Below are positions 17,217-49,058 of a DNA stretch of 64,000 bases, piece after piece. Numbering within the stretch: the first letter of the stretch is position 1; each line of letters opens with the position of its first letter. Position numbers and translations under genes: made by a program. The notes beneath the pieces are model-generated. The model did not search any database, had not been told where the DNA came from, and worked only from the letters and a program-made list of their open reading frames with translations. Source of the stretch: Halosimplex rubrum (GTDB lineage: Archaea > Halobacteriota > Halobacteria > Halobacteriales > Haloarculaceae); assembly GCF_013415885.1 (NCBI RefSeq), contig NZ_CP058910.1, positions 806,001 to 870,000 of the forward strand. The letters are read 5' to 3'.

Positions 17217-17248
17217 GAGGTCTCGTTTGCTCCGCTCCCTCGCGTCCG

Positions 17249-19449: not shown

Positions 19450-19450
19450 A

Positions 19451-22706: not shown

Positions 22707-22792
22707 CTGTAGTAGCATTTGAAAGACATCGCTCGGATGACCGCAGGCAGTCGTGCGGTCGACCGTGCAAACGCTTTCAAATTCTACTATAG
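22707..22792. repeat. 86-bp terminal-inverted-repeat element (MITE-like) or large hairpin
   Basis: Outer arms 22707-22725 and 22774-22792 match at 17 of 19 positions (CTGTAGTAGCATTTGAAAG against CTATAGTAGAATTTGAAAG) and are AT-rich against GC-rich surroundings. Inside, GACCGCA and TGCGGTC form a second 7-base stem. No coding capacity and no clear target duplication. It stands just upstream of the tubulin-like island. Confidence 0.5.
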
Positions 22793-22851: not shown

Positions 22852-24741
22852 ATGGAAGCTCTATCGAACCGTGGACGGCTTTCCCTCGGCTGCTGGGTCG
22901 TCGCAGGGGTGCCGATCGCGGCCTCGTTCGTCCAGGCGGCGATCGCGCTCGCCGGCGTCAACGCCCTCGAGATACCCGTTATCGGGGCGATGACGGCGCT
23001 CCTGCAGTCGGTCGCGGTGTTCGACGCCGCGGCCGTCGTGTTCAGGAACAGTCCGGAGGCCCTGCTCGCGCTGTTCGTGCTCGTGCTAGTCGGCTGGCTC
23101 GCCGAAGGTGGCGCCGTGTTCGTCCTGCGAAACCGGACGGCGGGGCTCGGCACCGCGGGGTTCGTCACGCTGTTTTTCGCGCTCTTCCTGCTCGTGTACT
23201 CGCCGCTGTTCGGCGCCGATGTCCCGGCGGTCGAGCTGGCCGGTTTCGTGCTGGTTCCGGTCGTCGCGTCCGGCGCGAGCTGGGCGGCGGTCCTGACCTA
23301 CGAGTGGTCCGAGACGCTGGACGAGGAGACCGAGGAGACCCTCGCGGCTGCGGAGCGCCGAGCGGACGACGCCCGCGACACATTCGACGCGGCGATCCGG
23401 AAGCGGGCCGGCGAGCGGGTCCGCGAGCGGGTCGACACCGTCGTGCCCGACGCCGTCGAGGCGCTCGACGCGCGCGCGGCGTCGTTCCGGGCGGACTGCG
23501 ACGGGGTGACCGACGAGGTCGCGGAGCTCCGGTCGGCGAGCGGCGTCGATAGCCGAGAGCGCAACCAGCGGGCCGACCAGTTGCTGGCGACCGCGGGGGA
23601 CCTGGACGGGCAAGCGGCCGCGGACGACGCCCTCGAGACGTTCCGGACGGCGCTCGCCGACGCGGTTCGCGACCGGTTCGACGACGTCCACGTCGTCTCC
23701 AGATACGGCGAGGCCTACGAGGTCCGAAACGTCCGCGAGTACGCCGAACTCGACCTCCCGTCGCTCGGCCTGACCGCTCAGGTCGGGGGGAACAGACACG
23801 ACCTCGCCGACCGGATCGCCGCCGCGATCGACGAGGGGACAGCGCTGTCGGACGTCGCTCGGGCCGTCGAGCGGGCCGACGAGCACCTCGCCGCGCTGAA
23901 GCGGACGATCGACGAACACGAGTCGGCGGTCGCCGAGGCGACCGAGGCGGCGGAGGAGCGTCTCGAGAGGGTCGCGGCACTGACCGAATCGATGGACGGG
24001 GCGGCCGGCGAGCGACTCTCGGAGTTCCTCGTCGAGGGGCGGTTCGACCGGGAGGGTGCGGACGTCCCGTCGGCGGTCGGCGTCAGGGAACGACTGCGCA
24101 CGGCGCGCGAGGACCTGCACGCGTGCCGGTTCGACGACGCACGACGCCGCGCCGAGGGGGCGCGAGACACCGCCGAGCACCTCGTGGCCACCGCGGAGTT
24201 CTTCGCAAACAGCGTCGTCGCGACGATCGAACAGCGGGTGGAGTCGGTTCCGCTCCCGCCGGATGTCGACCGGGAGTTGGCGGCGGCGATGACCGTCCCG
24301 ATCGGCCGGACGCATCCGGTGAGCGCCACCGTCGACGAGGACACCGTGCGCCTGCGCTACGAGGACGACTCGGTCGACGACGACCGCGGGGCGGCCGACG
24401 GGCCCGCACACCAGCGCTCGGGACCCAGCGTCGACCAGACGGACGCGAACGTCGACGACGTTCGGTATCTCCTTCGGGAGCTCCGGGACGGCGCGTCGAC
24501 GTCGAGCGCCGACGACACCGTCGAGCTGCAGACCGACGCGCTCCCGGAGCGGTACGTCACCGAGCCGCTCCTCTCGGCGGTCGAATCGCTGGCGAGCAGG
24601 CGCTCGGACGTGGTCGAGGTTTCGATCCCGGCGAACGCGCCGCCGGGCTTTCTCACCGTCGTCGTCGCGGACGGGGAGAGCCCCAAATCCGTCGTCGCCG
24701 AACTCTACGACGAGTTCCTCGACACCCAGCGGCCGGACTGA
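22852..24741 (+). CDS. Polytopic membrane protein with long cytoplasmic coiled-coil (island gene A)
   Basis: The 629-residue protein has four or five hydrophobic helices in its first 150 residues and no cleavable signal. The rest (about 155-629) is cytoplasmic and largely helical, with heptad-rich, Ala/Glu/Arg-rich stretches such as EETLAAAERRADDARDTFDA, an Asp-rich linker near 510, and a small C-terminal domain VVEVSIPANAPPGFLTVVVA. It is the first gene of the 11-gene operon and precedes a tubulin-like GTPase gene by 43 bases. I infer a membrane anchor for that GTPase. No family is recognised. Confidence 0.8.
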   Translation: MEALSNRGRLSLGCWVVAGVPIAASFVQAAIALAGVNALEIPVIGAMTALLQSVAVFDAAAVVFRNSPEALLALFVLVLVGWLAEGGAVFVLRNRTAGLGTAGFVTLFFALFLLVYSPLFGADVPAVELAGFVLVPVVASGASWAAVLTYEWSETLDEETEETLAAAERRADDARDTFDAAIRKRAGERVRERVDTVVPDAVEALDARAASFRADCDGVTDEVAELRSASGVDSRERNQRADQLLATAGDLDGQAAADDALETFRTALADAVRDRFDDVHVVSRYGEAYEVRNVREYAELDLPSLGLTAQVGGNRHDLADRIAAAIDEGTALSDVARAVERADEHLAALKRTIDEHESAVAEATEAAEERLERVAALTESMDGAAGERLSEFLVEGRFDREGADVPSAVGVRERLRTAREDLHACRFDDARRRAEGARDTAEHLVATAEFFANSVVATIEQRVESVPLPPDVDRELAAAMTVPIGRTHPVSATVDEDTVRLRYEDDSVDDDRGAADGPAHQRSGPSVDQTDANVDDVRYLLRELRDGASTSSADDTVELQTDALPERYVTEPLLSAVESLASRRSDVVEVSIPANAPPGFLTVVVADGESPKSVVAELYDEFLDTQRPD

Positions 24742-24784
24742 GCGAGGGCGAAAAGCAAAGTGAGTCCCTACCAATAAACTGACA

Positions 24785-26605
24785 ATGGACACGACCTGTA
24801 AGATCTGTTTCGAGGAGGTAGCGGCACCGTCTCTCGAGGCGCATCTCGCGAACCAACACGGGGACAGCCCGGCCTCGGTTCGCGAAGTGTACCCCGAGCA
24901 GTACGACGAACTCTTCGTCGGCGACGAACTCGCGCCCGGGTGGGCCGACGACGCTCCGGCGGACGGAAACGGGGAGTCGGACGGCGACCGTGACGACGGC
25001 GGCCGCGAGGACGGCGAAGCCGGCGCCGGAGCCGCCCGCCAGGCGAGCGACAGCGGGTCCCGGACCGACCGGGCGGTGGCGTCGGGCGGGAGCGGCTCCG
25101 CCTCGGCGCGTACGAGAGAGGAGACGGGGGCGACCGGAGCCGACGGGTCGCGTGCCGGGAACGCCGGCGAGCCGCGGGGAACCGGGACGGGTAGCCCGGC
25201 GGTCGGGCAGGACGCCCCCGGCGCGGAGGGGCTCCAGTCCGGGAAGAAGTGGCTGATGATCGGCGTGGGCGGCGCGGGCAATCACATCATCGACGCGGTG
25301 TTGATGCGCCGCGATACGCTCCGCGAGCGCGACGAGCCGCTCGCGGGCGTCTGGGAGGGCGGACTGGCCGACTACGGGAGCCTCAACACGAACATCGCCG
25401 AACTGGGCGACACTTACTACGCGCGCGAGGACCGCGGCTACGACCGCCAGCAGCTCCTCCAGAACGCGATGATCGCGGCGCGCAAGCACAACCACCAGGG
25501 CGCGGGGCGCAAGTGGACCGTCGGGCGCAAGCTCATGCAGGCCGACTTCGACGGCGAGTCGAACGCGCTCCGGGACCGGTGGGACATCTCGGCGAACAGC
25601 CTCGAGGCGTCGCAGGCGGTGATGCTGGTCCACAGCGTCACCAAGGGGACCGGCTGCGGGGCGACGCCGGTCCTCGCGGAGAACATCAGCGAGATGGCCG
25701 GCCAGGGTGTCGGTCTCGACGACGAACTCGCGGTCACGAAACCGATCCTGAGCTCGGTCATCATCCCCGAGGACGACGACTTCGGCGGGAGCGAGATGGT
25801 CCGCGGCGTCGCGGGGATGGCCCACCTCTCGAAGGCCGTCGACGGGATCATCCCGTTCGACAACCAGCGTCTCGACGAGGTCGGGGCCGACATCTCGGTC
25901 GCCATCGACGAGGAGCGGCTCAACGCCTACAACCCGATCAACTACGTCGACATCAACAGGCTGCTGGTGGCGTTTCTGGAGGCGTTCACGATGTCGTCGA
26001 CGCCCCAGAACTACGACCAGTCGGCGACGCGGCAGATCAACGGCGAGGTGTTCGACGTGCCCGACAGCTTCCGGCCGGCCGAGCCGAAATACCCCGCGGA
26101 CAGCGACCGCGACCACCAGCCGGCGGTCATCATGGCGCCGGTGATCGGACGGTCGTTCGCGTCGTCGTTCGACCGGTCGACGCTGAGCACGCTCGCCCGC
26201 ACCGCGTTGTTCAAGGGTCAGCTCATCGATTTCGACCCCTCGACCGCCTGGGGCGGGTCGTTCATGATCTACGGCCCCGAAGAGAAGATGGAGGAGATCG
26301 CACCGCTGGTCAACGCCAACGAGCTGAAGGACATCCTCAGTGGCGAGGAGTTCCTCGACCGCGGTTCGACCGATCCCGGACAGTCGGTCGACCTGTACGT
26401 CAACCAGCTCGTCGTTCCCGGGATCGACAGCGTCCATCTCTGGGGCGTGCTCTGGAACCCGCAGATCCCGTCGCTCGGCAAGATGTACGACCACGTGAAG
26501 GAGCTGTCCGAACAGAGCGACAGCCAGCAAGCCGACAACGTCCGCGAACTCTGGCCGCTCGTCGAGTCGCTGTTCGGTGCGATGGGCCGCGACGCGATGG
26601 GGTAA
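24785..26605 (+). CDS. Divergent FtsZ/tubulin-superfamily GTPase with N-terminal zinc finger (island gene B)
   Basis: The 606-residue protein starts with a C2H2-type finger (Cys5, Cys8, His20, His25), then a Gly/Asp/Glu-rich linker (about 50-152) and a tubulin-like GTPase domain (about 155-600). The domain has GVGGAGNHIID at its first loop, LNTNIAEL, a T4 loop KGTGCG (about 287-292) in place of GGGTGxG, FDNQRL at the T6 position, and NYVDINRLL near the T7 region. It should bind GTP and may polymerise. The Lys in T4 and only one T7 acidic residue suggest altered catalysis. Neither FtsZ1/2 nor CetZ. Confidence 0.85.
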   Translation: MDTTCKICFEEVAAPSLEAHLANQHGDSPASVREVYPEQYDELFVGDELAPGWADDAPADGNGESDGDRDDGGREDGEAGAGAARQASDSGSRTDRAVASGGSGSASARTREETGATGADGSRAGNAGEPRGTGTGSPAVGQDAPGAEGLQSGKKWLMIGVGGAGNHIIDAVLMRRDTLRERDEPLAGVWEGGLADYGSLNTNIAELGDTYYAREDRGYDRQQLLQNAMIAARKHNHQGAGRKWTVGRKLMQADFDGESNALRDRWDISANSLEASQAVMLVHSVTKGTGCGATPVLAENISEMAGQGVGLDDELAVTKPILSSVIIPEDDDFGGSEMVRGVAGMAHLSKAVDGIIPFDNQRLDEVGADISVAIDEERLNAYNPINYVDINRLLVAFLEAFTMSSTPQNYDQSATRQINGEVFDVPDSFRPAEPKYPADSDRDHQPAVIMAPVIGRSFASSFDRSTLSTLARTALFKGQLIDFDPSTAWGGSFMIYGPEEKMEEIAPLVNANELKDILSGEEFLDRGSTDPGQSVDLYVNQLVVPGIDSVHLWGVLWNPQIPSLGKMYDHVKELSEQSDSQQADNVRELWPLVESLFGAMGRDAMG

Positions 26606-26607
26606 CC

Positions 26608-28236
26608 ATGGTTACGACACTCACACTCGCGGTCGGCGTCGTCGGCTTCGTCGCCGGGCTCGGTGCGGGCGTGCTCGGCTACTGGCGGTTCGCCGGCGAC
26701 GACTCGCCGGACTCGCTGGGGCGCATCGCTTCGAAACTGGACACCGATCCCGACACCGAGGCCGTCGCGGCGGCCGTCGACGACCTCGTCGGCGCCGTCG
26801 AGACGATCGGGCGGGCCGGGGAGTTCCCGGACTCCGTGTCGGTCCCGCGGACGGACCCGCCGGCGGCGCAGGCGTCGGCGCTCGAACGGGCCGTCTCCGA
26901 CCGCGAGGTCGTCGTGTCGACGCCCGACGACGCGTCGTCGGGGTCGTTGGACCCGCTCTCGTCGCCCGACGGCGACTCGACCGCGGGGAACGGCGGGACG
27001 ACGCCGCTCGACGTCGACGCCGCGGCGGAGACGGCCGACTCGACGGAACGGGCGAACCACGTCAGCGAGGCGGCCCAGGCCGTCGAGCGGACGCGGTCGA
27101 CGCGGAGCCGGGACGTCGAGCGACTGCTGGGGTACCTGGCCGACCCCGACGGCGTCGACCAGCGACGCATCGAGGAGACGCTCACGTCGGTCGTCGAGAC
27201 GACCGCCGTCCACCACGAACTCGAGGAGGCGCTCTCGCGGGTCGACACCTCGTCCCTCGACTCGGCCTACGAGGCGACCGCGCTGCGCGACGCGCTCAGG
27301 GATGTCGAGGGCGAGGTCGCCCGGGGCGTGCGCGACCTCGCTGACGGCTACGCCACGACCGTCGAGGCGGCCGCGGACTGCCGGTCGGACCTCGAGTCGT
27401 TCGAACGGGCGGCGACGGACTTGGTCGCCACGGCCGCCGAGCAGACGACGGTCGACCTCTCCGGCGAAGGCTCGACCCGCAGTCAGATGGCCGCGCTGTC
27501 GGCGGCCGTCGACCGCGGCGAGGTGGCGATCCGAGCCGACGAGCAGCGGATCGAACGGGCCGCGACCGACGTCGAGCAACGCGTCGGGCCGGAGTCGTCG
27601 CTCGCCCAGGACCTCGTCGATCAGCTGGCCGAGCGCCGGACCGTCGACGGCCAGGAGTTCGAGGCGACGCTCGCGCGAGTTCTCGAGGCGCTCGACGAGG
27701 CCGAGACGGTGCGCCACCGGCTGGACGACGTCGACCGCGACGCCGTCTTGGACGTGGCCGACGACCTCGCCGAGGCGCTCGACCGGTCCGAACCGGTCGA
27801 GGGGCTCCTCGCCGACCGCGTCGACGAGATCACCGATACCGTCGAGCGGGCCAACGACGCCGACACGGTCGTCGTCTACGCGGCCCGCCGGGAGCTGTCG
27901 TACTACGACCGGACGCTCCTCCCGCTGCTCCGGGAACGCGAGCCCGAAGACACGCAGAACGCGGCGCTGGAGCAGCGCCTCTCGGAGGTCGAACAGCGAC
28001 GGTCCGACATCAGGACGAACTACCCGACCCGCTACCCGGAACACAACCACACCATCCCGATCCACTTCCTGGAACTCGTCGAGGCGCTCCACGAGGCCGC
28101 CACGGACGCCAGAGCCGACGGGGACTCCGAACGGGCCGACGGACTGCTCACCGCCGCGGAGCTCGCGATGGACTGGGTCGAAGAGCTCTACGAGCGCCAC
28201 GCCTACAGCGTTCTCCTCCAGCAGCTCCGGGGCTGA
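26608..28236 (+). CDS. Membrane-anchored coiled-coil protein (island gene C)
   Basis: The ATG at 26608 follows the previous stop by 2 bases and gives 542 residues. One N-terminal transmembrane helix (about 2-26, LTLAVGVVGFVAGLGAGVLG) leaves the rest in the cytoplasm. Residues 40-150 are a low-complexity acidic linker; 150-540 are helical with long coiled-coil-like stretches. It ends in WVEELYERHAYSVLLQQLRG. The arrangement of membrane helix plus long helical region before a tubulin-like gene repeats that of genes A and G. Confidence 0.78.
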   Translation: MVTTLTLAVGVVGFVAGLGAGVLGYWRFAGDDSPDSLGRIASKLDTDPDTEAVAAAVDDLVGAVETIGRAGEFPDSVSVPRTDPPAAQASALERAVSDREVVVSTPDDASSGSLDPLSSPDGDSTAGNGGTTPLDVDAAAETADSTERANHVSEAAQAVERTRSTRSRDVERLLGYLADPDGVDQRRIEETLTSVVETTAVHHELEEALSRVDTSSLDSAYEATALRDALRDVEGEVARGVRDLADGYATTVEAAADCRSDLESFERAATDLVATAAEQTTVDLSGEGSTRSQMAALSAAVDRGEVAIRADEQRIERAATDVEQRVGPESSLAQDLVDQLAERRTVDGQEFEATLARVLEALDEAETVRHRLDDVDRDAVLDVADDLAEALDRSEPVEGLLADRVDEITDTVERANDADTVVVYAARRELSYYDRTLLPLLREREPEDTQNAALEQRLSEVEQRRSDIRTNYPTRYPEHNHTIPIHFLELVEALHEAATDARADGDSERADGLLTAAELAMDWVEELYERHAYSVLLQQLRG

Positions 28237-28290
28237 GTCCCGCTCCGGGACCGACCGGGACGGGGATCGGCCCGCGACTGGCAACCATCC

Positions 28291-28356
28291 GGATACCGAA
28301 CGAACCTGTTCGGATATCAAAATTGATTGATTCGGATACTCTTATCATTCTGGATA
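28291..28356. promoter_or_regulatory. Four phased GGATA direct repeats before gene D
   Basis: GGATA occurs at 28291, 28312, 28334 and 28352, about two helical turns apart, with similar flanks (CCGGATAC, TCGGATAT, TCGGATAC, CTGGATAC). They fill the only sizeable gap in the plus operon, and CTTATC at 28341-28346 between the last two repeats could be the TATA element for the ATG at 28373. They may bind a regulator on one face of the helix. Confidence 0.45.
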
Positions 28357-28372
28357 CGCCTGTTGGGTAGTA

Positions 28373-29596
28373 ATGCCATACCTGTTTGTCGGGGCAGGAC
28401 AAGCGGGAAGCGGGATAGTAGACGACATTTTCGAACATACAAATATGTCAAAGATAGCCACACCTGTTATTTTCAACTCCACAATTAGAGACCTACAGAA
28501 TCTATCGAACGTCGAGGCCGACCGGTGGTACGGGATCGCCGAACAGTACGGGCTCGTTGAGGGCACGACCGAGGGGTTCGAGGAGCAGGTAACGGGTGGA
28601 TTCGGCCGGGACCCGGTCCGGGCCGACGAGGTCATGGACGAACACGCCGACGAGTTGCAGTCCGCGCTGCGGGAGCAGGTGGGTAGCGCGGAGGTCGACG
28701 CGGACGAGGACGAGGTCCCGGGGTCGGGCGACGTGCCGTTCGCGTTCCTGTTTTTCGGCCTGGGCGGCGGGACGGGCTGCGGGATCGCGCCGCACATCGC
28801 GGAGGCGATCTCGTCGTTCACCGACGGCACGACGCGGATCATCGCCGTCTGCGTCCTCCCGAACACCGAGGGACCGGTCGGCGGCGACGAGGAGGAGGCC
28901 AGTCCGAGCAGGCAGGCCTGGAACGCCCGCTACGGGCTCGACCGGATCGAAGACGTCGTCGACGGCGTAGTTCTCGTCGACAACCAGCGCCTCTCCTATC
29001 ACAACGCGGCGGAGGGGCAGTTCACCGAGTACAACGAGTACATCGCCGACGCCGTCGTCGACTTGATCTCCGGGCCGATCCTCGAGCGGATCGACCGGAG
29101 CGACTACGATGTCGACCCGCCGATCATCGACCTGCAGGACATCGTCACGTCGCTGTCGTTCGGCGTCGGGGAAGACGACAGGGAACCGGGGTACGCGGCG
29201 CTCGGGCGATCCGTCGCGATGACGCGCTCGCTGCGCGGATACCTCCTCCCGTTCGTCGGCAGGAAATCGGTCGACGCGCTCGCGCTGGCCAACCTCGCCG
29301 ACTCGAAACAGACGGTCGCGGGCGCCGACTCCCGCGATGCGCGGAAGGCGATCGGCCTCCTGCGGGCGCCGAGCCGGTACATCCGCGAGACGGACTACCG
29401 GATCGGCACGTCGAAGCTCCGCACGTTTCTGACCACGCGCTGCGACGAGGTCAACCTGGGCGCGACGCTCACCCGGCGCAACCTCGTCTCGTTCACCGCC
29501 CTGTTCACCTACCACCGGGACGACATCGACCGGATCGCCGAGATCGAGCGCCTGGCGGCCGAATACGAGGACGAATCGGAGGCGGTCGTCGCATGA
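28373..29596 (+). CDS. Divergent FtsZ/tubulin-superfamily GTPase (island gene D)
   Basis: The 407-residue protein is a GTPase core without extra domains. It has FVGAGQAGSGIVDD at the first loop, the best tubulin signature of the three, FGLGGGTGCGIAP (about 128-140), VDNQRL at the T6 position and IIDLQDIVTSL in the T7 region, where two Asp match the catalytic D-x-x-D of FtsZ. It is therefore the member most likely to hydrolyse GTP. The first 40 codons are strikingly AT-rich compared with the rest. It overlaps gene E by 4 bases (ATGA). Confidence 0.88.
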   Translation: MPYLFVGAGQAGSGIVDDIFEHTNMSKIATPVIFNSTIRDLQNLSNVEADRWYGIAEQYGLVEGTTEGFEEQVTGGFGRDPVRADEVMDEHADELQSALREQVGSAEVDADEDEVPGSGDVPFAFLFFGLGGGTGCGIAPHIAEAISSFTDGTTRIIAVCVLPNTEGPVGGDEEEASPSRQAWNARYGLDRIEDVVDGVVLVDNQRLSYHNAAEGQFTEYNEYIADAVVDLISGPILERIDRSDYDVDPPIIDLQDIVTSLSFGVGEDDREPGYAALGRSVAMTRSLRGYLLPFVGRKSVDALALANLADSKQTVAGADSRDARKAIGLLRAPSRYIRETDYRIGTSKLRTFLTTRCDEVNLGATLTRRNLVSFTALFTYHRDDIDRIAEIERLAAEYEDESEAVVA

Positions 29597-29874
29597 GCCG
29601 TCGGCTCCGGGTCGCCGGAGTCGCGGTCGGGCTGGCGTGTCTCGCGCTCGCGCTCGCGACGGGAGGCGCGGCCGGTCAGGACGAGGCCGACAACGAGTCG
29701 GTGGGGTCGCTGGTCGACGACGCCGGGAATGCGACGCTCGCACTGGAGCGGGCGAGCGACCTGCGCGACGACCGGTTCCGCCACATCGGGAGCGGGGGGA
29801 CCGTCGGACTGGGGCTCGGCCTCGTCGTCGGTAGCATCGCCTCCTTCGGGTTGTGGAGGGCACGGCTCCGATGA
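29593..29874 (+). CDS. Small surface-exposed bitopic membrane protein (island gene E)
   Basis: A 93-residue protein with a signal peptide (about 1-28, ending GGAAG), a short acidic ectodomain of about 40 residues with two N-glycosylation sequons (NESV, NATL), and a C-terminal membrane helix (about 68-88) with the basic tail WRARLR inside. It overlaps both neighbours by ATGA, so it is translationally coupled to the GTPase gene D. It looks like a miniature of gene J. Confidence 0.75.
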   Translation: MSRRLRVAGVAVGLACLALALATGGAAGQDEADNESVGSLVDDAGNATLALERASDLRDDRFRHIGSGGTVGLGLGLVVGSIASFGLWRARLR

Positions 29875-30941
29875 ACAGGCGGCTGGTGTCACTGGCGGGC
29901 GCGATCCTGCTCGTCGCGTTCGCGCCCGGCGCCGCCGGGGCGGCCGACCCGACCGAGCCCTGTTCCGGGGTCGCCGACTCCCTCGACGGCGAGGAGAAGG
30001 CGGTGGTCGCCACGACGGTCGCGGGCACGCGAACGAACGGTTCGGAGATGGTCCTCTACCCCGGAAGTCGACTGTCGCTGACGCTCTGTCAGGCGGACGG
30101 GGAGGCGCTCCGGACCGCGGGCGGCGACCTCTGGGACCTCGGGGCACACCCGGCGATCGCCAACAAGAGCGACGGAGAGACCCACTGGACGGTGACCGTC
30201 GACGGGGCCGACGAGTCCGCGGCGTTCCCCGCGCTCGTGCGGAACCAGTCCCAGGTCGTTCAGGGACCGTCACTTCGGGTCCAGACGGGGCTTCGATACG
30301 ACTCACAGGTCACGAACGGGACGCTCCTGTTCGCGGACGGCGCCTCGCGGGCCGCGGTCGAGCGCAACGAGAGCGACTTCTTGGCGGCCATGGAAGCGGT
30401 TGGGGCGAATACGACGACGCTGAACGGGACGGCGATCGCGACCGGCGAGCCGGTCGACGCCGGGGCGCTCGAACGGGCGAACGAGACGCTGTCGAACATC
30501 ACTGGGGCGACACAGGCTATGACGACGCGAAAGCAAACAACGGAGCGACTGCTCTACGGGCAAGCGGCGAGTCGGATCGGGAACGAAGACGCGCTGACGG
30601 TCATCGAGGCGATGAACGACGAGGAGCGGGCGGTGCGCCGGGACACGCGCGAGCGGTTGCGGGCGTACGCGGCGGCGGTCGACGAGCGGCGCGCGGCGCT
30701 GCGCGACGCCGCCCGGACGAACGTCCTCCTCGGGCTGGTGGTCGGGTGCCTGGTCGGGCTGGTGGCCGGCGCGGTCCGCCCGTATCTGGCTTACCAGGAG
30801 TACGACGACTTCCGCGCGACGACCAGCTCGGGGTCCTACGAACGGCAGGTGGTCTACGCTCCGGTCGCCGTCGGTCTCGCGCTCGTCGCGATCGGGATCG
30901 GGCTCGCGGCCTGGACCGGCGCTCTGGGGGTGATCGCGTGA
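29871..30941 (+). CDS. Secreted-domain membrane protein (island gene F)
   Basis: The ATG at 29871 gives 356 residues: signal peptide (about 1-22, ending AGAA), an ectodomain of about 250 residues with many sequons (for example NGSE, NKSD, NQSQ, NETL) and two cysteines that may pair, then two membrane helices (about 283-305 and 330-352). The ectodomain begins with predicted beta strands and becomes helical. It shares ATGA and GTGA overlaps with genes E and G. No family is recognised; position and glycosylation sites suggest contact with the S-layer. Confidence 0.78.
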   Translation: MNRRLVSLAGAILLVAFAPGAAGAADPTEPCSGVADSLDGEEKAVVATTVAGTRTNGSEMVLYPGSRLSLTLCQADGEALRTAGGDLWDLGAHPAIANKSDGETHWTVTVDGADESAAFPALVRNQSQVVQGPSLRVQTGLRYDSQVTNGTLLFADGASRAAVERNESDFLAAMEAVGANTTTLNGTAIATGEPVDAGALERANETLSNITGATQAMTTRKQTTERLLYGQAASRIGNEDALTVIEAMNDEERAVRRDTRERLRAYAAAVDERRAALRDAARTNVLLGLVVGCLVGLVAGAVRPYLAYQEYDDFRATTSSGSYERQVVYAPVAVGLALVAIGIGLAAWTGALGVIA

Positions 30942-33043: not shown

Positions 33044-34285
33044 ATGTCGGGCTCCGACACCTACACGCGGTGGGCGGTCCTCGCGGCGGGCGAGGGCGGC
33101 GGGCGCATCGCCTCGAACCTCTTCGGCCGCGCGGACAACCCGGGGATCGACGACCGTATCCTGGTGATGAACACCAACCGCGCGGACATCCGCAACACCA
33201 TCGACCGGATGGAGGCCGAGACGACGATCGACACGGAGTCGATCGAGCTGAACCACACGGTCACCTTCGGCGACCTCGACGGGGTCGGGAACTACTTCCC
33301 CGGCGGCGAGGCCTGCGCCGAGGCGGACCTGGACCGCATCATCGAGCAGCTCGACGCCGCCGAGGTGGAGAACGCCGACGCGTTCCTGTACGTCACGACG
33401 CTGGGCGGCGGGACCGGCAACGGGTCGGTGCCGTATCTCATCAACAGCCTGAAATCGAACCCGCCGTCGGCCGCGCTCGACGACACGATCCACGTGGCGC
33501 TGGCGGCCTGGCCGTACAGCCACGAGGGCGGCCAGCGACACTTCAACGCGGTCTGCGGGCTCTCGCGGCTCCTCCGGTGGTACGACGGCAGCCAGAACGC
33601 CGACATGGTCGTGCTCATCTCGAACTCTCACATCGCGGACGACGCCGGGTTCGAGGATGTGGTCGACCCGGACGGGGACCGGTACTCGACGGTCAACGAG
33701 ATGGCGATCAGCGCGATGGACCTCATGATCGGCGCGGGCCGCGAGACACGCGGGGTCGTCGACGTGAGCGACTACGTGACCTGGCCCTCGCGGCTCGACG
33801 CCTACCACTTCACGCCCGGCGTCGCGCTCGAACAGCCCTCGGTGTTCGAACTCGACCTGCTGTTCGACAAGGCCGCCGACAACGGGTTCGTCCCGCTGGA
33901 CCCGACGACCTCGCGCGTGGTCTACGGGATCGTCCGCGCACCGACTCACCTCGTCGAGCAGGGCGAGTACAGCGAGGCCGAGCTCGACGCGGCGCTCCAC
34001 GAGTGGCTCGACGCCAACGGGTACGACGACATCGTCCACCGGATGACGACGCTGACGCCCGTCGACCGGCGCGATGACACCCTCGACGTCCTGCTCATGT
34101 TCGGCGGCTTCGACCTCGACCCGCTGCTCTCGGAGTCACGCACCTCCTTCGACGCGATCATGGAACAGGCGACCGAGCGCGGCATCCAGTCGGACGTGGA
34201 CACGCCCGGCGAGGAGTTCTCGACGGATCGCTTCCGGGCGATCCGGCGTAACCTCGAGGACTATCTCTCGGCGAGCAGGGGGTGA
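33044..34285 (+). CDS. Divergent FtsZ/tubulin-superfamily GTPase (island gene H)
   Basis: The 413-residue protein begins directly after gene G. It has AAGEGGGRIASNLF at the first loop, MNTNRADI at the position where FtsZ has its NTD motif, the T4 signature LGGGTGNGSVP (about 119-129) and VVDVSDYVTW at the T7 region, where two Asp fit the D-x-x-D catalytic pattern. The T6 region reads ISNSHIADD, unlike the DNQRL of its paralogues. It is a probable GTP-binding polymer subunit. Its stop overlaps a possible GTG, but the next gene more likely starts 6 bases further on. Confidence 0.87.
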   Translation: MSGSDTYTRWAVLAAGEGGGRIASNLFGRADNPGIDDRILVMNTNRADIRNTIDRMEAETTIDTESIELNHTVTFGDLDGVGNYFPGGEACAEADLDRIIEQLDAAEVENADAFLYVTTLGGGTGNGSVPYLINSLKSNPPSAALDDTIHVALAAWPYSHEGGQRHFNAVCGLSRLLRWYDGSQNADMVVLISNSHIADDAGFEDVVDPDGDRYSTVNEMAISAMDLMIGAGRETRGVVDVSDYVTWPSRLDAYHFTPGVALEQPSVFELDLLFDKAADNGFVPLDPTTSRVVYGIVRAPTHLVEQGEYSEAELDAALHEWLDANGYDDIVHRMTTLTPVDRRDDTLDVLLMFGGFDLDPLLSESRTSFDAIMEQATERGIQSDVDTPGEEFSTDRFRAIRRNLEDYLSASRG

Positions 34286-34286
34286 T
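34277..34286 (+). promoter_or_regulatory. Strong Shine-Dalgarno site for gene I
   Basis: AGGGGGTGAT matches the ideal AGGAGGTGAT at 9 of 10 positions and ends 4 bases before the ATG at 34291, which decides for that start over the GTG at 34282. Confidence 0.55.
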
Positions 34287-34290
34287 CCCG

Positions 34291-37593: not shown

Positions 37594-37594
37594 T

Positions 37595-41510: not shown

Positions 41511-41654
41511 GAGCGGACCGCTTCCGGTCGGCCGACCCCGTCCGACGGGTGACTGTCGGGTTCGCCGCAACGCTTCCCCGTATCGACCGACCGCTCCGAG
41601 ACGACCCGCTGGAAGCGAAAAACGACGTGGCGCCCGCACCGTCGGCGGGTACGG

Positions 41655-44603
41655 TCAGGTACCGTCCGGGTCCTCGGCGGGTTCGTACCCCGAACGGAGG
41701 TGTGTCGGGCGCTCCGGCTCGTCGGTGTCGTCCCGCACGCTCGCGGTCCACTGGTCGAGTTGCTCGGCCGATGCCGACTCGCGGTCGGCGGCGACCGGTC
41801 CGGCGACGCGAGCCGGGACCTCGACCGCCCCGTCGGGGCCGGTGGCCGAACAGGTGACGTGTATCGAGAGGTCGCCGGCCGACTCCGGTTTGACGTCGAG
41901 GTTGACTCCGACCCTCTCGTCGGGATCGACGGTCGCGACCTCGGCGGGGGAGAACAGCGAACTGTTCTCGACGGCGGTGCCGCTCGCCTCGACGCGGAGG
42001 TCGGACAGTGTCCGGTCGCTCCGGTTAGTCACGCGCAGTGGGATCACGCCGTTGGTCCCCGCTGCGACGGCGCTCCCGTCGCCGACCTCGACCGCGAGGA
42101 CCGGACCGGACGTGTCGAGGACGGCCGCCAGCGAGTGGCAGAACGCCTCGTCCTCGCCCGCCGGACGGTACTTGACGCCGGCGTCGAGCACGTCCGCCTC
42201 GGGCACGCGATCCGACGAGAGGCGCCGCTCCAGCGTCCGCGTCTCGCCGCTCGGGAGCGCCCCGTCCTCGATGTCGAACCGGGGCCAGGTGTCCTCCCCG
42301 ACGTCGACGCCGAACACGTCCAGTTCGCACTCCCGAGACCCCTCGTTGACCGCCTCCAAGGCGATGGCCGCGTCGCTACGACCGCGCTCGACGACGAACT
42401 CCGGGTGGAAGCCGCCGCGCTCGACGGTCACCGTCGCATCGGGCAGCGGGTACGCGTCGCCGGCCGCCGTCACGCGGCCGCCCGAGACGGTTCGCTCGCC
42501 GTTCCCGTGGAAGACGTGGTCGCGCTGTAGCGTCACCGTTTCGCCCGCCGCGACGGCACCGACCGCGTACGACTCCCCGTCGGCTTCGATCGCGAGGTCG
42601 TCGACGCCGCGCTCCTCGACCGATATCTGGACCCGCTCGGAGCAGGCCGCTCCCGACGCGACGTGTTCCGGGATGGCGCGCTCGACGGTCACTGCCGGCG
42701 CCGGCGACGCTCCGGCGGCCTCAGCGCCGCCCGCCACCCGGCCGTCGTCGGGAGTGCGGTCCGTCTCGCCGTCGGCGCGTCCCCGCCGCTCCGGTTCTGC
42801 CGTCGCCTCCTCCCGCGGCTCCCCCGGCTCGTGCGGTTCCGATCGCGAGCGGCCAGCCCCGTCACGCCGACCGTGGGCGGGTCGCTCGTCGGACTCCCGG
42901 CGCCGGCCGCGGCGGTCGGTCGGCACTGCGCGGTCGTCGAGGTCCGGCCAGCCGGAGAGCCGACTGCGCTTATCGGTGTCCGTGCCGGAGCAGGTCACCG
43001 CCACCGGGAACGGTTCCGAGGGGGCGACCGGAAGCGCGAGCGCGACGACCGTCGCGGTCCCGGGCGCCAGTTCGTAGGCCCGTTCGCGCGTGAACTCGTC
43101 GGCGACGGAGATCGTCACGTCGGCGGCCACCGGCACGTCGCATTCGCTGGTCAGTTCGACGTCGACGTACGGGTAGCCCCCGGAGCGGTCCTGCTCGACG
43201 GCGACCGACAGCGGGCGGTCCGGCAGGTCGACGGCGAACGGGAGCGTCTCGCTGGCGCCGTCGGTCGCGAGCGTGACCGTCCGCTCGACCCGTGCTCCCG
43301 GCTCGTACGCGCTCTCAAACTCGAACTCGCGCTCCTCGCCGGGCTCGAGGTGTCTCGTCTCACCCTCGCCGGACACGTCGACCGCGACCGATCCGGTGTG
43401 TTCGAGGACCGCGCACCACCGCGCCCGGCCGCGGTCGAGGCGATCGAGGCGCGTCCGGGTCGCGACCTGTTCGGCGAGCGCCTCGGGCTCCTCGAAGCGG
43501 ACCGTCCCGGTCGCGACCACCGCCTCGTCGACGGTCACGGTCACCGTCCCGTCACCGGGGTCGTCGACCGCGGCGACGCCGACCTCGAACGCGGCGCGCT
43601 CGCCGGCTTCGAGGTCGACGCGGCTGGGCGCGCCGGCGGCGACGGCCCGCTCCCCGAAGTCGACCCCCAGGTCCGCGACCGCCGCTCTGTCGCCCTCGTT
43701 CTCGACGACGACGCGAACCGGCCGGGAGGGGTCGGCCCGGTCAGTGTCGACCGACGCGGTGACGGCCGCGACGGGGTCGGTCACCGGGCGGTACACCGCG
43801 ACCGACCCCTCGCCGACGGTCGCCAGCGCGGCTCCGTCGGGTATCGCGGCGGCGAGCGTCTCCGCCGGCACGTCGAGGGGGTCAGCGTCGCCGTCGTCGT
43901 CGACGACCGCGAGTTCGTCCGCGAAGGCGACCAGCACGGCCGCCTCGTCCGCGGGCGCGACGGCCCCCGCGCCGTCGTCGACCGCCCAGGCCTCCTCGCC
44001 GGCGGTCAGGTCGACGCCGACCAACCGCCCGTCCTTGAGCGCCGCGACGGCCAGGTTGGCCGTGAGTGCGATATCCGTGACCACGCCGTCGAACGAGTGG
44101 TCGAGGACGACCTCGCCGCCCTCCGAGACGACCGTCAGGAACGACCAGGCGGCGACGGCGATCCGACCGTGCCCGCCGGTGACCGCGCTCACGTCCGAGA
44201 CGTCGTCGTGCGGCCGCTCGCGGCGGAACCGCTCGCTCCCCGTCTCCGGGTCCAGCCCGACGAGCTCGCCGCCCTCGGTGACGACACAGAGCGGGCCGCC
44301 GCCGCTCGGCGCGACGAGGTGGGTCCCGTCCGCGACGCGCTGGCGCCACAGTTCCAGCCCGCCGCTCGTGAACGCGGCGACCGCCGCGTCGAACAGGGCG
44401 AAGGGGTAGCGCCCGGCCGCCACGTCGACGACCGGGTCGTCCGTCCGGATCCGGTTCCGGTCGGTGCCCGTGACGATGTCGAGCCGCCCCTCGTCGCTCC
44501 CGAACACGAGACAGTCGTTCCCGGCGGCGACGCGCGTCCGGCCGCCCGAGGAGAACGTCTCGTCGACGCTGTATTCGTCGTCGAACGACCCGTCACTCCC
44601 CAT
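41655..44603 (-). CDS. Cytoplasmic beta-propeller/CARDB scaffold (island gene P)
   Basis: The 982-residue protein has no signal peptide. Residues 15-270 show a repeated four-strand pattern (GNDCLVFGSDEGRLDIVTG, AVAALKDGRLVGVDLTAGEE) of a PQQ- or WD-type beta-propeller; 275-560 and 655-930 hold CARDB/Ig-like beta domains (RVVVENEGDRAAVADLGVDF); between them lies a charged Arg/Glu linker (about 565-650). It is the last gene of the minus operon, 3 bases after the AAA+ gene. Such domains are usually extracellular, so a cytoplasmic scaffold is unusual. No enzyme motif is seen. Confidence 0.77.
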   Translation of the reverse strand: MGSDGSFDDEYSVDETFSSGGRTRVAAGNDCLVFGSDEGRLDIVTGTDRNRIRTDDPVVDVAAGRYPFALFDAAVAAFTSGGLELWRQRVADGTHLVAPSGGGPLCVVTEGGELVGLDPETGSERFRRERPHDDVSDVSAVTGGHGRIAVAAWSFLTVVSEGGEVVLDHSFDGVVTDIALTANLAVAALKDGRLVGVDLTAGEEAWAVDDGAGAVAPADEAAVLVAFADELAVVDDDGDADPLDVPAETLAAAIPDGAALATVGEGSVAVYRPVTDPVAAVTASVDTDRADPSRPVRVVVENEGDRAAVADLGVDFGERAVAAGAPSRVDLEAGERAAFEVGVAAVDDPGDGTVTVTVDEAVVATGTVRFEEPEALAEQVATRTRLDRLDRGRARWCAVLEHTGSVAVDVSGEGETRHLEPGEEREFEFESAYEPGARVERTVTLATDGASETLPFAVDLPDRPLSVAVEQDRSGGYPYVDVELTSECDVPVAADVTISVADEFTRERAYELAPGTATVVALALPVAPSEPFPVAVTCSGTDTDKRSRLSGWPDLDDRAVPTDRRGRRRESDERPAHGRRDGAGRSRSEPHEPGEPREEATAEPERRGRADGETDRTPDDGRVAGGAEAAGASPAPAVTVERAIPEHVASGAACSERVQISVEERGVDDLAIEADGESYAVGAVAAGETVTLQRDHVFHGNGERTVSGGRVTAAGDAYPLPDATVTVERGGFHPEFVVERGRSDAAIALEAVNEGSRECELDVFGVDVGEDTWPRFDIEDGALPSGETRTLERRLSSDRVPEADVLDAGVKYRPAGEDEAFCHSLAAVLDTSGPVLAVEVGDGSAVAAGTNGVIPLRVTNRSDRTLSDLRVEASGTAVENSSLFSPAEVATVDPDERVGVNLDVKPESAGDLSIHVTCSATGPDGAVEVPARVAGPVAADRESASAEQLDQWTASVRDDTDEPERPTHLRSGYEPAEDPDGT

Positions 44604-44606
44604 CGC

Positions 44607-46223
44607 CTACTCCTCCGCCTGGTCCCCACCCAGGTCGCGCAGCTGGTCGAACACGTCGCTGCCCCCGCCGACCGCGATCCCGAGCCGGTCCGCCTGCTCT
44701 TCGACGTACCGACGCATCTCCGGGTACCCCTCGAGCTCGTCGACCTCCTCGCGGACGCTGGTGATGAACTGTCGGACCGTCTTGGGCTCGTTGCGGTCGA
44801 GCCGCTCCAGCAGGTACTCCGTATCCGGGACGATCGGCTCGGAACCGTCCTCGACGACACTGCGGACGAGTTCGCGCTGGAGCTCCGTTCCAAGCACGCG
44901 GTCGGCGATCTCGGCCGGGGTGTACCCCGCCGACGCGGCGCCGAGTCGCTCGTAGCTGATCTCCACGTCCGGGTTGGCCGCTTCGAGCGAGTCCAGTTCC
45001 TTGTGCCACACCTGAGACATCACCTCGTCGCCGGGCTGAGGGATGAACTGCTGGACGGGGAAGCGCCGGCTCGCCGCCGGGTCGATCGTGAACGGCATGT
45101 TCGTCGCGCCGATGACCAGCAGGTTGTCCTCGATCTTGTCGGTCCCCATCTCCTGCAGGAAGGCGTTGGTCAGCGACCGCTCGTGGCGCTGGAGGTCGTC
45201 GTCGCTGCGGTCGGGGATGAGCGTCTCGATCTCGTCGAAAAAGAGCACCGCGAAGCCGTCCTGTGCGATGCTGTGGGCGCGGTCGAACACCGCCTCGACG
45301 CGGCGCTCGGCCTCGCCGGGGTACCGCGAGAGGATGTCCCCGCCCTTGACCGGGAGGAACTTCACGTCGCCGTACTCCGACTCGATGTTGGTGTTGTTGG
45401 CCGCCTCGTAGGCGATCGCCTCGGAGACGAGCGTCTTCCCGCAGCCCGGCGGCCCGTACAGCAGCATGCTGCCGCCGCGCGCGGCGAACTCCTCCCCGTA
45501 GCGCCCCTCGACCTCCCGTTTGGTCTCCGGGTCGAACAGCGCGAGCAGCATCTGCGCGGTGCTTTTCACCTCGTCCAGGCCGGCCACGTCCTCCTCGAAG
45601 CTCACCGTCGGCTTCTCCGGGGAGATGTCGATGTCGACGTCCTCGTCGTCGCGGCCCTGACCGCCGCCGCGGCCCTGGCCGCCGGGACCGGGACCGGCCC
45701 CCTGGCTCGGTCCGCGGTCGCGTCGCTCGTCGCGCTCCTCTCGGTCGACGAACTCGAACTCGGTCTCCTCGTCGACCATCAGGGTCGGGAACCCGCGCGG
45801 TTGCAGGTCGAGCACCTCGAAGTGGGTCAGCTCCCCGTCGATGAGCGCGACCTCCTCGATCTCGTGGAGCAGGTAGTTCGTGGACCGCAGAAACGAGGCC
45901 AGCCGCTCCTCGCCGATGTCGCGGGTGTACAGCGTCGCGGACTTGCACGGCTCGACGTCGCGACCGCTGACATCGGCCTCGACCTGGAAGGGCTGCCCGC
46001 GGGCGATCCCGCCGAAGACATCGGCGACGTTCTCGTGGAACTTGACCTTGTTCCGGATGTTGCTCGCGACCAGTTCCTCCTCGGGGTCGACGTAGAAGAA
46101 CGCCGACCGGTTGTTGTGCGTGACGGCGACGATGTTCGACGACCCGACCTTCGTCTCCCCGATCGTGAGGTGCGAAGTCGGCCGGTCCGTCTCCGTCACC
46201 GGCTGTAGATTCAGTTTGCTCAT
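44607..46223 (-). CDS. Cdc48/Vps4-type single-domain AAA+ ATPase (island gene O)
   Basis: The 538-residue protein has a beta-rich N-terminal domain (about 1-160), a Gly/Arg/Asp linker (about 165-200) and one classical AAA domain: Walker A GPPGCGKT (257-264), Walker B VLFFDEIE (about 326-333), sensor GATN (372-375) and an arginine-finger region ASRRF (about 384-388). The domain order resembles Cdc48-like unfoldases cut to one ring, or Vps4 without a MIT domain. I infer that it remodels or disassembles a protein assembly made by this island. It lies 3 bases after gene N. Confidence 0.9.
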   Translation of the reverse strand: MSKLNLQPVTETDRPTSHLTIGETKVGSSNIVAVTHNNRSAFFYVDPEEELVASNIRNKVKFHENVADVFGGIARGQPFQVEADVSGRDVEPCKSATLYTRDIGEERLASFLRSTNYLLHEIEEVALIDGELTHFEVLDLQPRGFPTLMVDEETEFEFVDREERDERRDRGPSQGAGPGPGGQGRGGGQGRDDEDVDIDISPEKPTVSFEEDVAGLDEVKSTAQMLLALFDPETKREVEGRYGEEFAARGGSMLLYGPPGCGKTLVSEAIAYEAANNTNIESEYGDVKFLPVKGGDILSRYPGEAERRVEAVFDRAHSIAQDGFAVLFFDEIETLIPDRSDDDLQRHERSLTNAFLQEMGTDKIEDNLLVIGATNMPFTIDPAASRRFPVQQFIPQPGDEVMSQVWHKELDSLEAANPDVEISYERLGAASAGYTPAEIADRVLGTELQRELVRSVVEDGSEPIVPDTEYLLERLDRNEPKTVRQFITSVREEVDELEGYPEMRRYVEEQADRLGIAVGGGSDVFDQLRDLGGDQAEE

Positions 46224-46226
46224 GTC

Positions 46227-46859
46227 TTAGGTATCCAGTCGTTCGACGACCCAGCTGCCGAACCGCTGCGGCCGGTCGTCCGACCGCCCGGCGCGATGGC
46301 TCACCCACCGGTGCCTGGTGAGCGTGTGTCTGAGCACCCGTCTGATGTCCGCGAGCGTCTCGACGACCGACCGCCAGACCCGCTCGAAGACCGTCTCCGC
46401 CTTCCCCGAACGCGCGATGCGGTCGCGGACGTGCGCTCCCTTCTCGCGGAGCGCGTCGAGGCGGTCGTGGACGAACGCGAACACCACCGCCCAGTTCCCC
46501 GCGGCGGGTCCGGCCCGCGCCAGCGGGACGTGTACGGATCCGTCGGCGACGGCGAGGAGCCCGCAGTCGCACGCCCTCGCGAGGCGGTCGACGTCGGCCG
46601 GCGTCGCGTCGCCGCGGTCGTAGACCGTCTCCAGGACGGTGGCGACGCTCGCGTCGAGCCGTTCGTCACCGTCGTCGACCGCCGTCGGTCCGGGGATCGG
46701 TTGGCTCGCTCTCGTGAGTTCGCAGAGGTCACTCAGCGTCCGCAAGACCGCGAGGCCCTTCGTGAGGACCGACTCGTTCGTGACCGTCGGCTCCCCGAGG
46801 ACGGCGTCGATGTCGTCCTCGACCGCGCTCGCCGTGCCGACGAACGAACGTCCCTCCAT
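46227..46859 (-). CDS. Small island protein, winged-helix-like (island gene N)
   Basis: A 210-residue protein starting MEGRSFVGTASAVEDDIDAV, helical, with a DATPADVDRLARACDCGLLA segment that could be a winged helix and a basic C-terminal part rich in Arg and His (RRVLRHTLTRHRW). No membrane segment. It sits between the coiled-coil and AAA+ genes with gaps of 9 and 3 bases, so it is surely co-transcribed. It could be an adaptor for the ATPase; no family is recognised. Confidence 0.7.
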   Translation of the reverse strand: MEGRSFVGTASAVEDDIDAVLGEPTVTNESVLTKGLAVLRTLSDLCELTRASQPIPGPTAVDDGDERLDASVATVLETVYDRGDATPADVDRLARACDCGLLAVADGSVHVPLARAGPAAGNWAVVFAFVHDRLDALREKGAHVRDRIARSGKAETVFERVWRSVVETLADIRRVLRHTLTRHRWVSHRAGRSDDRPQRFGSWVVERLDT

Positions 46860-46868
46860 TCGGATCGC

Positions 46869-47927
46869 TCAGTTGTTGAACTCGTAGCTGCCGGTCTCCT
46901 CGTCGGCCTCCGCGTCGGTGCTCATCTCCTCGGCGTCGATGTCCTCGGTCGCGTCGAGCACCTGCTGGACCTTCTCCATCGTGTTCTGTTCCTCCTTTTT
47001 CTCCGCGGCGGAGTCGACGTCCGTCAGCGAGGTCGCCAGGTTCGAGAGGTTCTTCGCCATCTCCATGGCCCGCTCGGGGGCGATCTCCTCCTTGTACTTG
47101 TAGGCGCGTTTGACCCGCTGTTTCTGCGTTTTCAGCACGTCGTCGATCTCTTCGAGCTTCTGCATCTGCGCGCCGAGTTCCTCCGCGGCCCGCCGGAGTT
47201 CGTCCTCGAGGGTCCCGCCCTCGGCCGCCTCCTTCATGCTCTCCAGGTGGAAGAGTCGCTCTTCCAGGCGCTCGTACTCGGCCTGGTCGGGCGGGCTGAG
47301 GTCGGTCTCGTCGAGCTGTCTGCCGTTCGTGAGGTTCATCAGCTCCTGAGCCACTTCCTGCTGTTTGTGATCGAACTCCTGTACCTTCTCGGCGGCGTTG
47401 GACTCGCCGATCTCCTCGCGCAGCTCCTGTTCGGTCTGTTCGATCGTCTCGATCGTATCGTCGATCTTGTTCGTACAGCCCTCAATCGCCGAGACCCAGT
47501 TCAGCAGCATCTTCGGTTTCGTCTCGTCGTTCTCGCTGCCGATGTCCTGGAGCATGCTCGGGTCCTCCAGCACCACCAAGTCGGTGCCGTCGGTGTCCAG
47601 CACGTCCTCGTCGACGAAATAGTCGATGACCGCCTCCGCCTGCGCCTCGCTCTCGATCGGGATCGTCTTGTCCTCGGACGCGATGAGGCTGTTCAGCGCG
47701 TCATCTCGCTGTATCTTCCCCTTTCCCGATTCGAGGTTCAGCGCGTTGGAGATGTCGTACTGGACGAGTTGGCCGACCACGTCCGTCCACGTCTCGTCGG
47801 GGTCCTCGGTGTTCCCGATGGCACCCGGGATCCGGACCGGCTCGTCCCGGTCGTTTTTCGGCTGCGCGATGATGTACTCCTGACCACCCTGCGTCGTCGT
47901 GCTGAAGTTCTGGTATTTCGTCGTCAT
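46869..47927 (-). CDS. Coiled-coil protein (island gene M)
   Basis: A 352-residue soluble protein. Residues 1-125 form an alpha/beta domain (QEYIIAQPKNDRDEPVRIPG, then a likely winged helix with EAQAEAVIDYFVDEDVLDTD); 130-320 are strongly heptad-like helices (ERLEERLFHLESMKEAAEGG, QKQRVKRAYKYKEEIAPERA); the acidic tail ends GSYEFNN. It may be the substrate or adaptor of the AAA+ ATPase encoded two genes downstream. Its composition is less GC-biased (many Lys, Asn, Gln) than most neighbours. No family is recognised. Confidence 0.75.
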   Translation of the reverse strand: MTTKYQNFSTTTQGGQEYIIAQPKNDRDEPVRIPGAIGNTEDPDETWTDVVGQLVQYDISNALNLESGKGKIQRDDALNSLIASEDKTIPIESEAQAEAVIDYFVDEDVLDTDGTDLVVLEDPSMLQDIGSENDETKPKMLLNWVSAIEGCTNKIDDTIETIEQTEQELREEIGESNAAEKVQEFDHKQQEVAQELMNLTNGRQLDETDLSPPDQAEYERLEERLFHLESMKEAAEGGTLEDELRRAAEELGAQMQKLEEIDDVLKTQKQRVKRAYKYKEEIAPERAMEMAKNLSNLATSLTDVDSAAEKKEEQNTMEKVQQVLDATEDIDAEEMSTDAEADEETGSYEFNN

Positions 47928-47942
47928 CGTTTCTGTGTCCCG

Positions 47943-49058
47943 TTATTCGGTTGATTTGTTGCCGACCTGAAACATGGCGTCGACCTTGCGCTCGAAGCGC
48001 TCCTCGATAGCGTCTCTGACGTACCCGTTCACCCGTTCCGCGTCGCTGACCACGATCTCCGCTATCTGGGGCCGCCCCTCGTCGACGAGGTCGCTGGGCT
48101 GACCGAGCGCCTGCTGGTCGATATCCTCGAGTATCTGGTCGGCCCGCGCGTCGACGTACTCCTCGAAGTCCTCCTCGTGGCGGATGACCGCCTTGTCCTC
48201 CGTGAGCCCGTACTCCTCCTTCAGTTGGCCTCGGATCTCGTCGAACAGCTGTTCGGTGTCGTTGCGGTCGAGGTGGAGCAGGACGTCGTAGCGCTCGGAG
48301 ATCTCGTTCTCGACGACCTGTTCGAACTCGTCGAGGGTGAGCACGCCGATATCGTCGAACTCGTCGACGACATCGTCGCCGATCTCGTCGACCAGGAACT
48401 CGGCGTACTCGTCGAAACAGCTCCGGACGAGGTAGTCGTCGCCCATGTCGACGACGAACCCCTCGTTGACGAGGTGTCGGATCACGTCGCTCGTCGCGGC
48501 CACGTCGATGACGTTCTCCAGTTTCGAGTGCGAGAGCGTCCCGAGCGTCGCCTCCTTCTCGAGGCGCGCGGAGACGCTCGCGTCGCCGGAGGTCTCGTCG
48601 CGCAGGTCCGGGCCGCTCCGGTAGTAATCCCTGTCGCCCGTCGAGATACGGCTGATGTACTGCTGGTCGACCAGCCGTTCGGCGAAGAAGTCGACGTCCG
48701 CGGGCGCGATGTCGAACTGCGACTGGATGTCCTGAGTGTTGACCACGAGCTTCCGCTTGAACAGGTGTTTCAACTCGCCGGTCACCGAGGTCCCCTCGGG
48801 CAGCCCGAACGGGTCGTAGTAGTAGGCCCCGTTCCTGAGCTTCTCGAACTCGGAGAACTCGTCGTTGGCGAGATCTCGCAGTCCCTCTTTGATGTCCGTC
48901 GCCGACAGCGATCCCGTGTTCAGTAACCCGGTGTCCCGACTCTCGTAGCCCTCCTTTATCGCCTCCTTCGTATCAGTCACGTATAAGAAGCCGTAGTTAT
49001 CGAGAGCCAGCTCCCGAGAGATATCTTCGAGAGCTTCGGTTTCTACTGGCCGAACCAT
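47943..49058 (-). CDS. Multi-winged-helix-like protein, first gene of minus operon (island gene L)
   Basis: A 371-residue acidic, helical protein starting MVRPVETEALEDISRELALD. Repeated short patterns of helix-helix-strand (LVDQQYISRISTGDRDYYRS, LVNEGFVVDMGDDYLVRS) suggest two or three winged-helix modules, followed by an acidic helical C-terminal half. The likely leaderless promoter and the palindrome at its start make it the operon's first gene; it could be its own regulator or a structural adaptor, and the sequence does not decide. No signal or membrane segment. Confidence 0.72.
   Translation of the reverse strand: MVRPVETEALEDISRELALDNYGFLYVTDTKEAIKEGYESRDTGLLNTGSLSATDIKEGLRDLANDEFSEFEKLRNGAYYYDPFGLPEGTSVTGELKHLFKRKLVVNTQDIQSQFDIAPADVDFFAERLVDQQYISRISTGDRDYYRSGPDLRDETSGDASVSARLEKEATLGTLSHSKLENVIDVAATSDVIRHLVNEGFVVDMGDDYLVRSCFDEYAEFLVDEIGDDVVDEFDDIGVLTLDEFEQVVENEISERYDVLLHLDRNDTEQLFDEIRGQLKEEYGLTEDKAVIRHEEDFEEYVDARADQILEDIDQQALGQPSDLVDEGRPQIAEIVVSDAERVNGYVRDAIEERFERKVDAMFQVGNKSTE

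Follow-up and report, generated by a model that had tools for sequence, protein, structure and literature searches.

Sixteen genes that lie together in a haloarchaeal genome of one 4.48-Mb contig are read here as a complete Halo_adaptin ESCRT-type system that carries three tubulin-superfamily GTPases and would act in vesicle budding or envelope sorting, a reading whose chances we judge to be evenly balanced. The block occupies positions 22852–49058 of the window (the whole stretch of 64 000 nucleotides that was analysed). GC3 framing places 11 genes on the forward strand (operon 1, in the order A, Tub1, B, Tub2, C, D, E, Tub3, F, G, H) and five on the reverse strand (operon 2, in the order L, K, J, AAA, I), so that the two convergent operons described in the initial annotation are present in full. 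The junctions within operon 1 are mostly overlaps of four or eight bases or spacings of 0–2 bases and those within operon 2 are gaps of 3–15 bp. The tight packing claimed at the outset therefore holds for most junctions but not for A–Tub1 (43 bp) or B–Tub2 (136 bp). The 8-base overlap of G and H is identical in all eight distant genomes compared, and the B–Tub2 gap is likewise open in eight of eight other genomes. It measures 66–160 bp in seven of these; the 543 bp found in the remaining one (G154) is probably due to a truncated reading of B.

The three tubulin-family proteins and the envelope genes of operon 1

Tub1 (24785–26605), Tub2 (28373–29596) and Tub3 (33044–34285), all on the forward strand, match the tubulin/FtsZ family PF00091 with 49.8, 47.0 and 46.6 bits, respectively (E-values of 6.4e-13, 4.7e-12 and 6.2e-12), each above the 33-bit cut-off. 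Apart from five canonical FtsZ/CetZ proteins, a search of the whole genome returned only Tub1–3. On the evidence of the PF00091 matches, the T4 G-box and the T7 acidic pair, Tub1, Tub2 and Tub3 are assigned to the tubulin superfamily, as had been claimed for all three GTPases. The T4 loop reads TKGTGCG in 30 of 31 Tub1 sequences and GGGTGCG in all 33 Tub2 sequences, while Tub3 has GGGTGNG in 30 of 32 and GGGTGCG in the other two. The T7 acidic pair (DxxD in Tub2 and Tub3) is kept in all three proteins, at D424/D427 in Tub1, D253/D256 in Tub2 and D240/D243 in Tub3, the invariant Tub1 pair having been placed by profile alignment to CetZ. The same alignment rules out the motif DINR (residues 389–392 of Tub1) as a T7 loop that has lost its acidic pair.

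The initial annotation also held that the GTPases are neither FtsZ nor CetZ, and the family comparisons agree. Against the FtsZ equivalog model TIGR00065 (cut-off 295.2 bits), Tub1–3 score 28.0, 39.8 and 34.0 bits, whereas the host's own FtsZ1 and FtsZ2 score 424.8 and 398.5, which rules out an FtsZ identity. CetZ is the strongest profile match of Tub1–3 among the canonical families, and the profile–profile alignments cover most of both tubulin domains (97.1, 99.2 and 98.9%). The three proteins thus share their two-domain tubulin homology with CetZ (CetZ1 of Haloferax volcanii and its relatives). They differ from it in lying outside the CetZ clade, in having GTGCG or GTGNG rather than GTGSG in the T4 loop, in being encoded in an operon with membrane and AAA genes and, for Tub1, in having an extra N-terminal zinc-finger-like region. 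In a quick tree, which does not fix the deep joins, Tub1, Tub2 and Tub3 each form a clade of their own (SH-aLRT of 100, 99 and 100) and the CetZ clade (SH-aLRT of 100) contains none of them.

The N-terminus of Tub1 carries an invariant C5-C8-H20-H25 set (a CxxC-H-H, zinc-finger-like arrangement), followed by a disordered linker and the divergent tubulin domain. An AlphaFold model of Tub1 computed from 19 sequences is of low confidence (pLDDT of 51), and the best 50 PDB chains that match it are all FtsZ.

The remaining genes of operon 1 encode three membrane proteins with coiled coils and five proteins with signal-like segments, and here hydropathy bears out what had been predicted. Gene A (22852–24741, 629 aa) has about five N-terminal transmembrane segments followed by a cytoplasmic coiled coil, gene B (26608–28236, 542 aa) has one and a cytoplasmic coiled coil, and gene E (30938–33043) has two, a coiled coil and an Ig/transthyretin-like segment related to F (profile similarity of 93%). 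Residues 339–430 of A are in turn profile-similar to residues 237–331 of E (81%). N-terminal hydrophobic, signal-like segments are found in C (29593–29874, 93 aa), D (29871–30941), F (34282–37593), G (37595–38629) and H (38622–41510). D has two further transmembrane segments at its C-terminus, G and H have one each, and F has three central ones together with carboxypeptidase-regulatory and SpaA-type Ig domains (PF13620, 4.4e-14; PF17802, 2.7e-8). The Ig-type matches of H are weak (PF22544, 1.2e-4, below the cut-off), and the C-terminal part of G is profile-similar to H (75%). Gene C has a counterpart in a small gene of 252 bp annotated at the same place on plasmid pHS2. Two of the longest open reading frames were rejected in favour of these calls: that at 26663–28330 is in the wrong frame by GC3 and was replaced by gene B, and the 5′ part of that at 29729–33043 is in the wrong frame by the same measure and was replaced by genes C, D and E.

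Operon 2 and the Halo_adaptin system

The Halo_adaptin ESCRT system was predicted by Makarova et al. (2024, mBio; PMC10936438), whose main text gives the gene order as a winged-helix protein, a winged-helix/coiled-coil protein, an ESCRT-III-like protein, a Vps4-like AAA protein without an MIT domain and a propeller/Ig protein. Operon 2 has this order, all on the reverse strand. L (47943–49058), the first gene, stands at the position of arCOG11740 (duplicated winged helix) and K (46869–47927), modelled at low confidence with an N-terminal globular part and a long helical region, at that of arCOG11741. J (46227–46859, 210 aa) takes the place of the ESCRT-III-like gene, and the order is completed by AAA (44607–46223) and I (41655–44603); the domain identities of L, K and J are those given in the paper. 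The likeness extends to the accompanying Ig proteins, membrane proteins and CetZ-like proteins and to the exemplar genus, since Haloquadratum, of which Haloquadratum walsbyi is named there for its CetZ-like protein, carries the same cluster. The initial statement that no system with this gene set had been described does not stand, because Halo_adaptin, as set out in that main text, matches operon 2, the Ig proteins and the CetZ-like protein.

Three differences from the main text of that paper are seen: three tubulins are found here against one CetZ-like protein there, one propeller protein (I) against two, and the block has more transmembrane and exported genes. As Haloquadratum carries the same cluster, we count the single propeller as a difference and not as grounds for exclusion. 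To that main text the present analysis adds the three-tubulin composition and its constancy, the T4 and T7 signatures, the variants in which the operons are unlinked or the set is reduced, the empty site in congeners and the copy in Halobacterium salinarum.

A single AAA domain (PF00004, 3.8e-28) preceded by a non-MIT N-terminal domain was found in the AAA protein, in line with the single-ring AAA+ ATPase of the initial annotation; a search for an MIT domain gave no match. The Walker A and B motifs, the pore-loop Tyr301 and Arg386/387 are invariant. Cdc48 and Vps4 are threading ATPases, and by analogy with them these motifs indicate an active threading ATPase. The protein scores 99.4 bits against the CdvC model (cut-off of 650) and 99.0 bits against CDC48, and so is by sequence no closer to Vps4/CdvC than to CDC48. 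The Halo_adaptin AAA protein is described with a Cdc48/VAT-type N-domain (PMC10936438, main text); a CDC48_2 match was obtained for five of 14 AAA family members (7.3e-5 at best), the protein of the window itself giving none.

I is a cytoplasmic protein with a β-propeller and Ig-like domains, as had been claimed, the propeller being of PQQ type, and corresponds to the adaptin-like protein of Halo_adaptin. Its homologues contain PF13360 (PQQ_2) in 13 of 13 cases and CARDB in two, and a Pfam search of the other cluster proteins gave no second propeller. For J, no informative match was obtained in Pfam, ESCRT-III/PspA similarity included, or in the PDB. Pfam was equally uninformative for L. L and K matched no winged-helix family above the cut-off and no informative solved structure; one of 12 K members gave a Snf7 match at 0.021, and the single-sequence AlphaFold model of K is poor (pLDDT of 53). 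Residues 213–288 of L are weakly similar (E-values between about 1e-5 and 1e-4) to another family, of ∼125-aa proteins from several haloarchaea, which may be a stand-alone version of one L domain.

Distribution, transfer and reduced variants

Strong homologues of Tub2 (450–900 bits) occur in nine of 195 relatives, the source genome included. The next score is 41.6, and the two genomes with weak matches (G024 and G163) contain ordinary CetZ only. Order and orientation of the whole 16-gene set are conserved in eight other genomes, with operon 2 lying elsewhere in one of them and divided by a contig end in another. Operon 1 was located at 19 named-record loci (one truncated by its contig) in genera that include Halorubrum, Halorussus, Haloquadratum, Natronomonas, Natrinema and Halobaculum. 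In Haloquadratum walsbyi J07HQW1 operon 1 is present within the stretch examined, and G170 has all of the genes. A full annotated set is carried by plasmid pHS2 of Halobacterium salinarum R1, at 165445–189846, and another by a plasmid of Halobaculum roseum; five PLSDB records place the block on plasmids.

The phylogenetic profile of the set, a check suggested with the initial annotation, ties the two operons together. Among 293 Halobacteriales genomes, L was found in 28 and Tub3 in 29, with both in 27 (P of about 1e-34 if genomes are treated as independent), and the sole genome with L only is 59% complete. The block is present in roughly a tenth of the related species, and wherever L turned up in a phylum-wide sample the gene order was unchanged. 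Two genomes carry both operons unlinked, 263 kb apart in G184 and on different contigs in G250, so the co-occurrence is independent of linkage.

The term 'island' proved apt. Four congeners (G002, G004, G006 and G007) have an empty site, in which the sequence corresponding to window position 22657 is joined to that at 49229 with about 110–190 bp between, and the block is therefore gained or lost as a unit. For eight genes of operon 1, the distance matrices correlate with one another at r of 0.77–0.96, values reached by none of 500 permutations and due in part to shared ancestry. The tubulins of Halorubrum and Natrinema, which belong to different families, share 77–83% of their residues, whereas those of Halorubrum and Halobaculum, of the same family, share only 51–60%. 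This identity pattern points to transfer of the block.

Reduced variants were found in two genomes of one family. Both G232 and G237 have retained Tub2, E, Tub3, F, G and H, and G232 also D and I; both lack Tub1, A, B, L and the cluster-type AAA. The machine is therefore modular, and the AAA half is not needed for every function, since these genomes have the Tub2/Tub3/envelope half without it. The module border coincides with the open B–Tub2 gap. That Tub1, A and B are missing along with the AAA module suggests a functional partnership between them. In G232, two large unmatched genes (1000 and 733 aa) lie divergent from Tub2.

Two further features were noted to the left of the block. Between the left edge of the island and gene A, positions 22707–22792 hold an imperfect inverted repeat with 39-nt arms (77% complementary) and an 8-nt spacer, which could be an operator or an element end. 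The 17-mer GTAGTAGCATTTGAAAG, with at most three mismatches, occurs in the window only there (two matches against 0.01 expected). Directly after tRNA-Arg(tct) (16920–16994), a low-GC stretch of about 3.8 kb (17093–21201), with a GC content falling to 44%, is missing from the congeners, in which 17.3 kb joins 21.2 kb, and is probably an integrated element.

Possible function of the block

If the block is an ESCRT-type machine with tubulins, then the three tubulins, among them Tub1 with its zinc finger, would form polymers with GTP at the cytoplasmic side of the membrane. A, B and E, through their coiled coils and transmembrane segments, would anchor the polymer there, and E to H would connect it to Ig domains at the cell surface, where the cargo or the S-layer lies. 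The products of operon 2 would recruit cargo and dismantle or remodel the polymer: I would serve as a coat or an adaptor, K/L and J would act in the manner of ESCRT-II/III, and AAA would be the threading ATPase that may drive disassembly; the predicted outcome is vesicle budding or the sorting of envelope proteins. The genes co-occur, and the membrane-linked cytoskeletal machine acting across the envelope that was proposed in the initial annotation is a reasonable reading of their putative function. A more specific version, in which three obligately different tubulins, one of them with a zinc-finger-like N-terminus, co-assemble into a membrane-coat polymer coupled to the ESCRT/adaptin-like AAA+ module, in a block mobile between archaea, we regard as unlikely; it would make the block a prokaryotic trafficking machine in which tubulin filaments are joined with ESCRT-type remodelling. 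Vesicle formation in haloarchaea has been shown to involve the ArvABC system of Haloferax volcanii (PMC10927574), which is also GTPase-based and has the role proposed for the Tub block. The ArvABC GTPase is an Arf-like small GTPase and not a tubulin, and ArvABC is widespread and mostly vertically inherited, in contrast to the patchy Tub block.

The main rival is a scaffold for cell shape or the cell surface, in which tubulin polymers would position or assemble the exported Ig proteins (as fibres, S-layer attachments or cell–cell contacts), with the AAA protein serving in turnover and no vesicles being formed. We consider this somewhat unlikely. It would accord with the many exported or membrane-anchored products of the block, with the reduced variants, in which precisely Tub2, Tub3 and the envelope proteins survive and the AAA protein is missing, with the presence of the block in the square archaeon Haloquadratum and with the action of CetZ relatives in cell shape (PMC9856176). 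The full set with its winged-helix, AAA and propeller genes nevertheless resembles trafficking systems, and the carriers have no evident shape in common. Halobacterium cells are rods and those of Haloquadratum are squares.

That the block serves a mobile or conflict-related function, whether defence, plasmid partition or a plasmid- or virus-related compartment, appears very unlikely. Its patchy distribution (about 10% of species), the plasmid locations in PLSDB, the empty site in congeners and the pattern of transfer between families would all accord with such a function. Against it, the block is chromosomal in many species, and large exported Ig proteins would be unusual for partition. PADLOC models match only generically (the AAA protein to IetA/TRIP13), on which a defence system was rejected, and a viral origin was rejected on the absence of Tub2 relatives from 50 697 phage records and from IMG/VR.

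It is scarcely credible that Tub1–3 are the FtsZl1-type tubulins for which Makarova and Koonin (2010) proposed a role in membrane remodelling: these belong to the same superfamily and are likewise divergent tubulins of multigene membrane-associated operons, but family, partners and architecture differ, genes for vWA, kinase or P-loop GTPase partners are missing from the block, and the identity is contradicted both by the tree, in which the clades are separate, and by the PF13809 scores (14.9 bits for Tub1, 17.4 for Tub2 and no match for Tub3 against a cut-off of 27), a comparison put forward with the initial annotation. FtsZl1/PF13809 proteins, in frames of roughly 800–1190 aa, occur in 14 of 116 relatives (for example G049, G050, G003 and G004), the source genome not being among them.

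Should the reading of the block as an ESCRT-type system with three tubulins be correct, a single machine would combine tubulin polymers with an ESCRT/Vps4-like module in a cell that has no organelles, and this would bear on the origin of trafficking. The complete system on pHS2 of H. salinarum R1 makes this directly testable, and the natural two-part variants allow the tubulin/envelope part to be separated from the AAA part.
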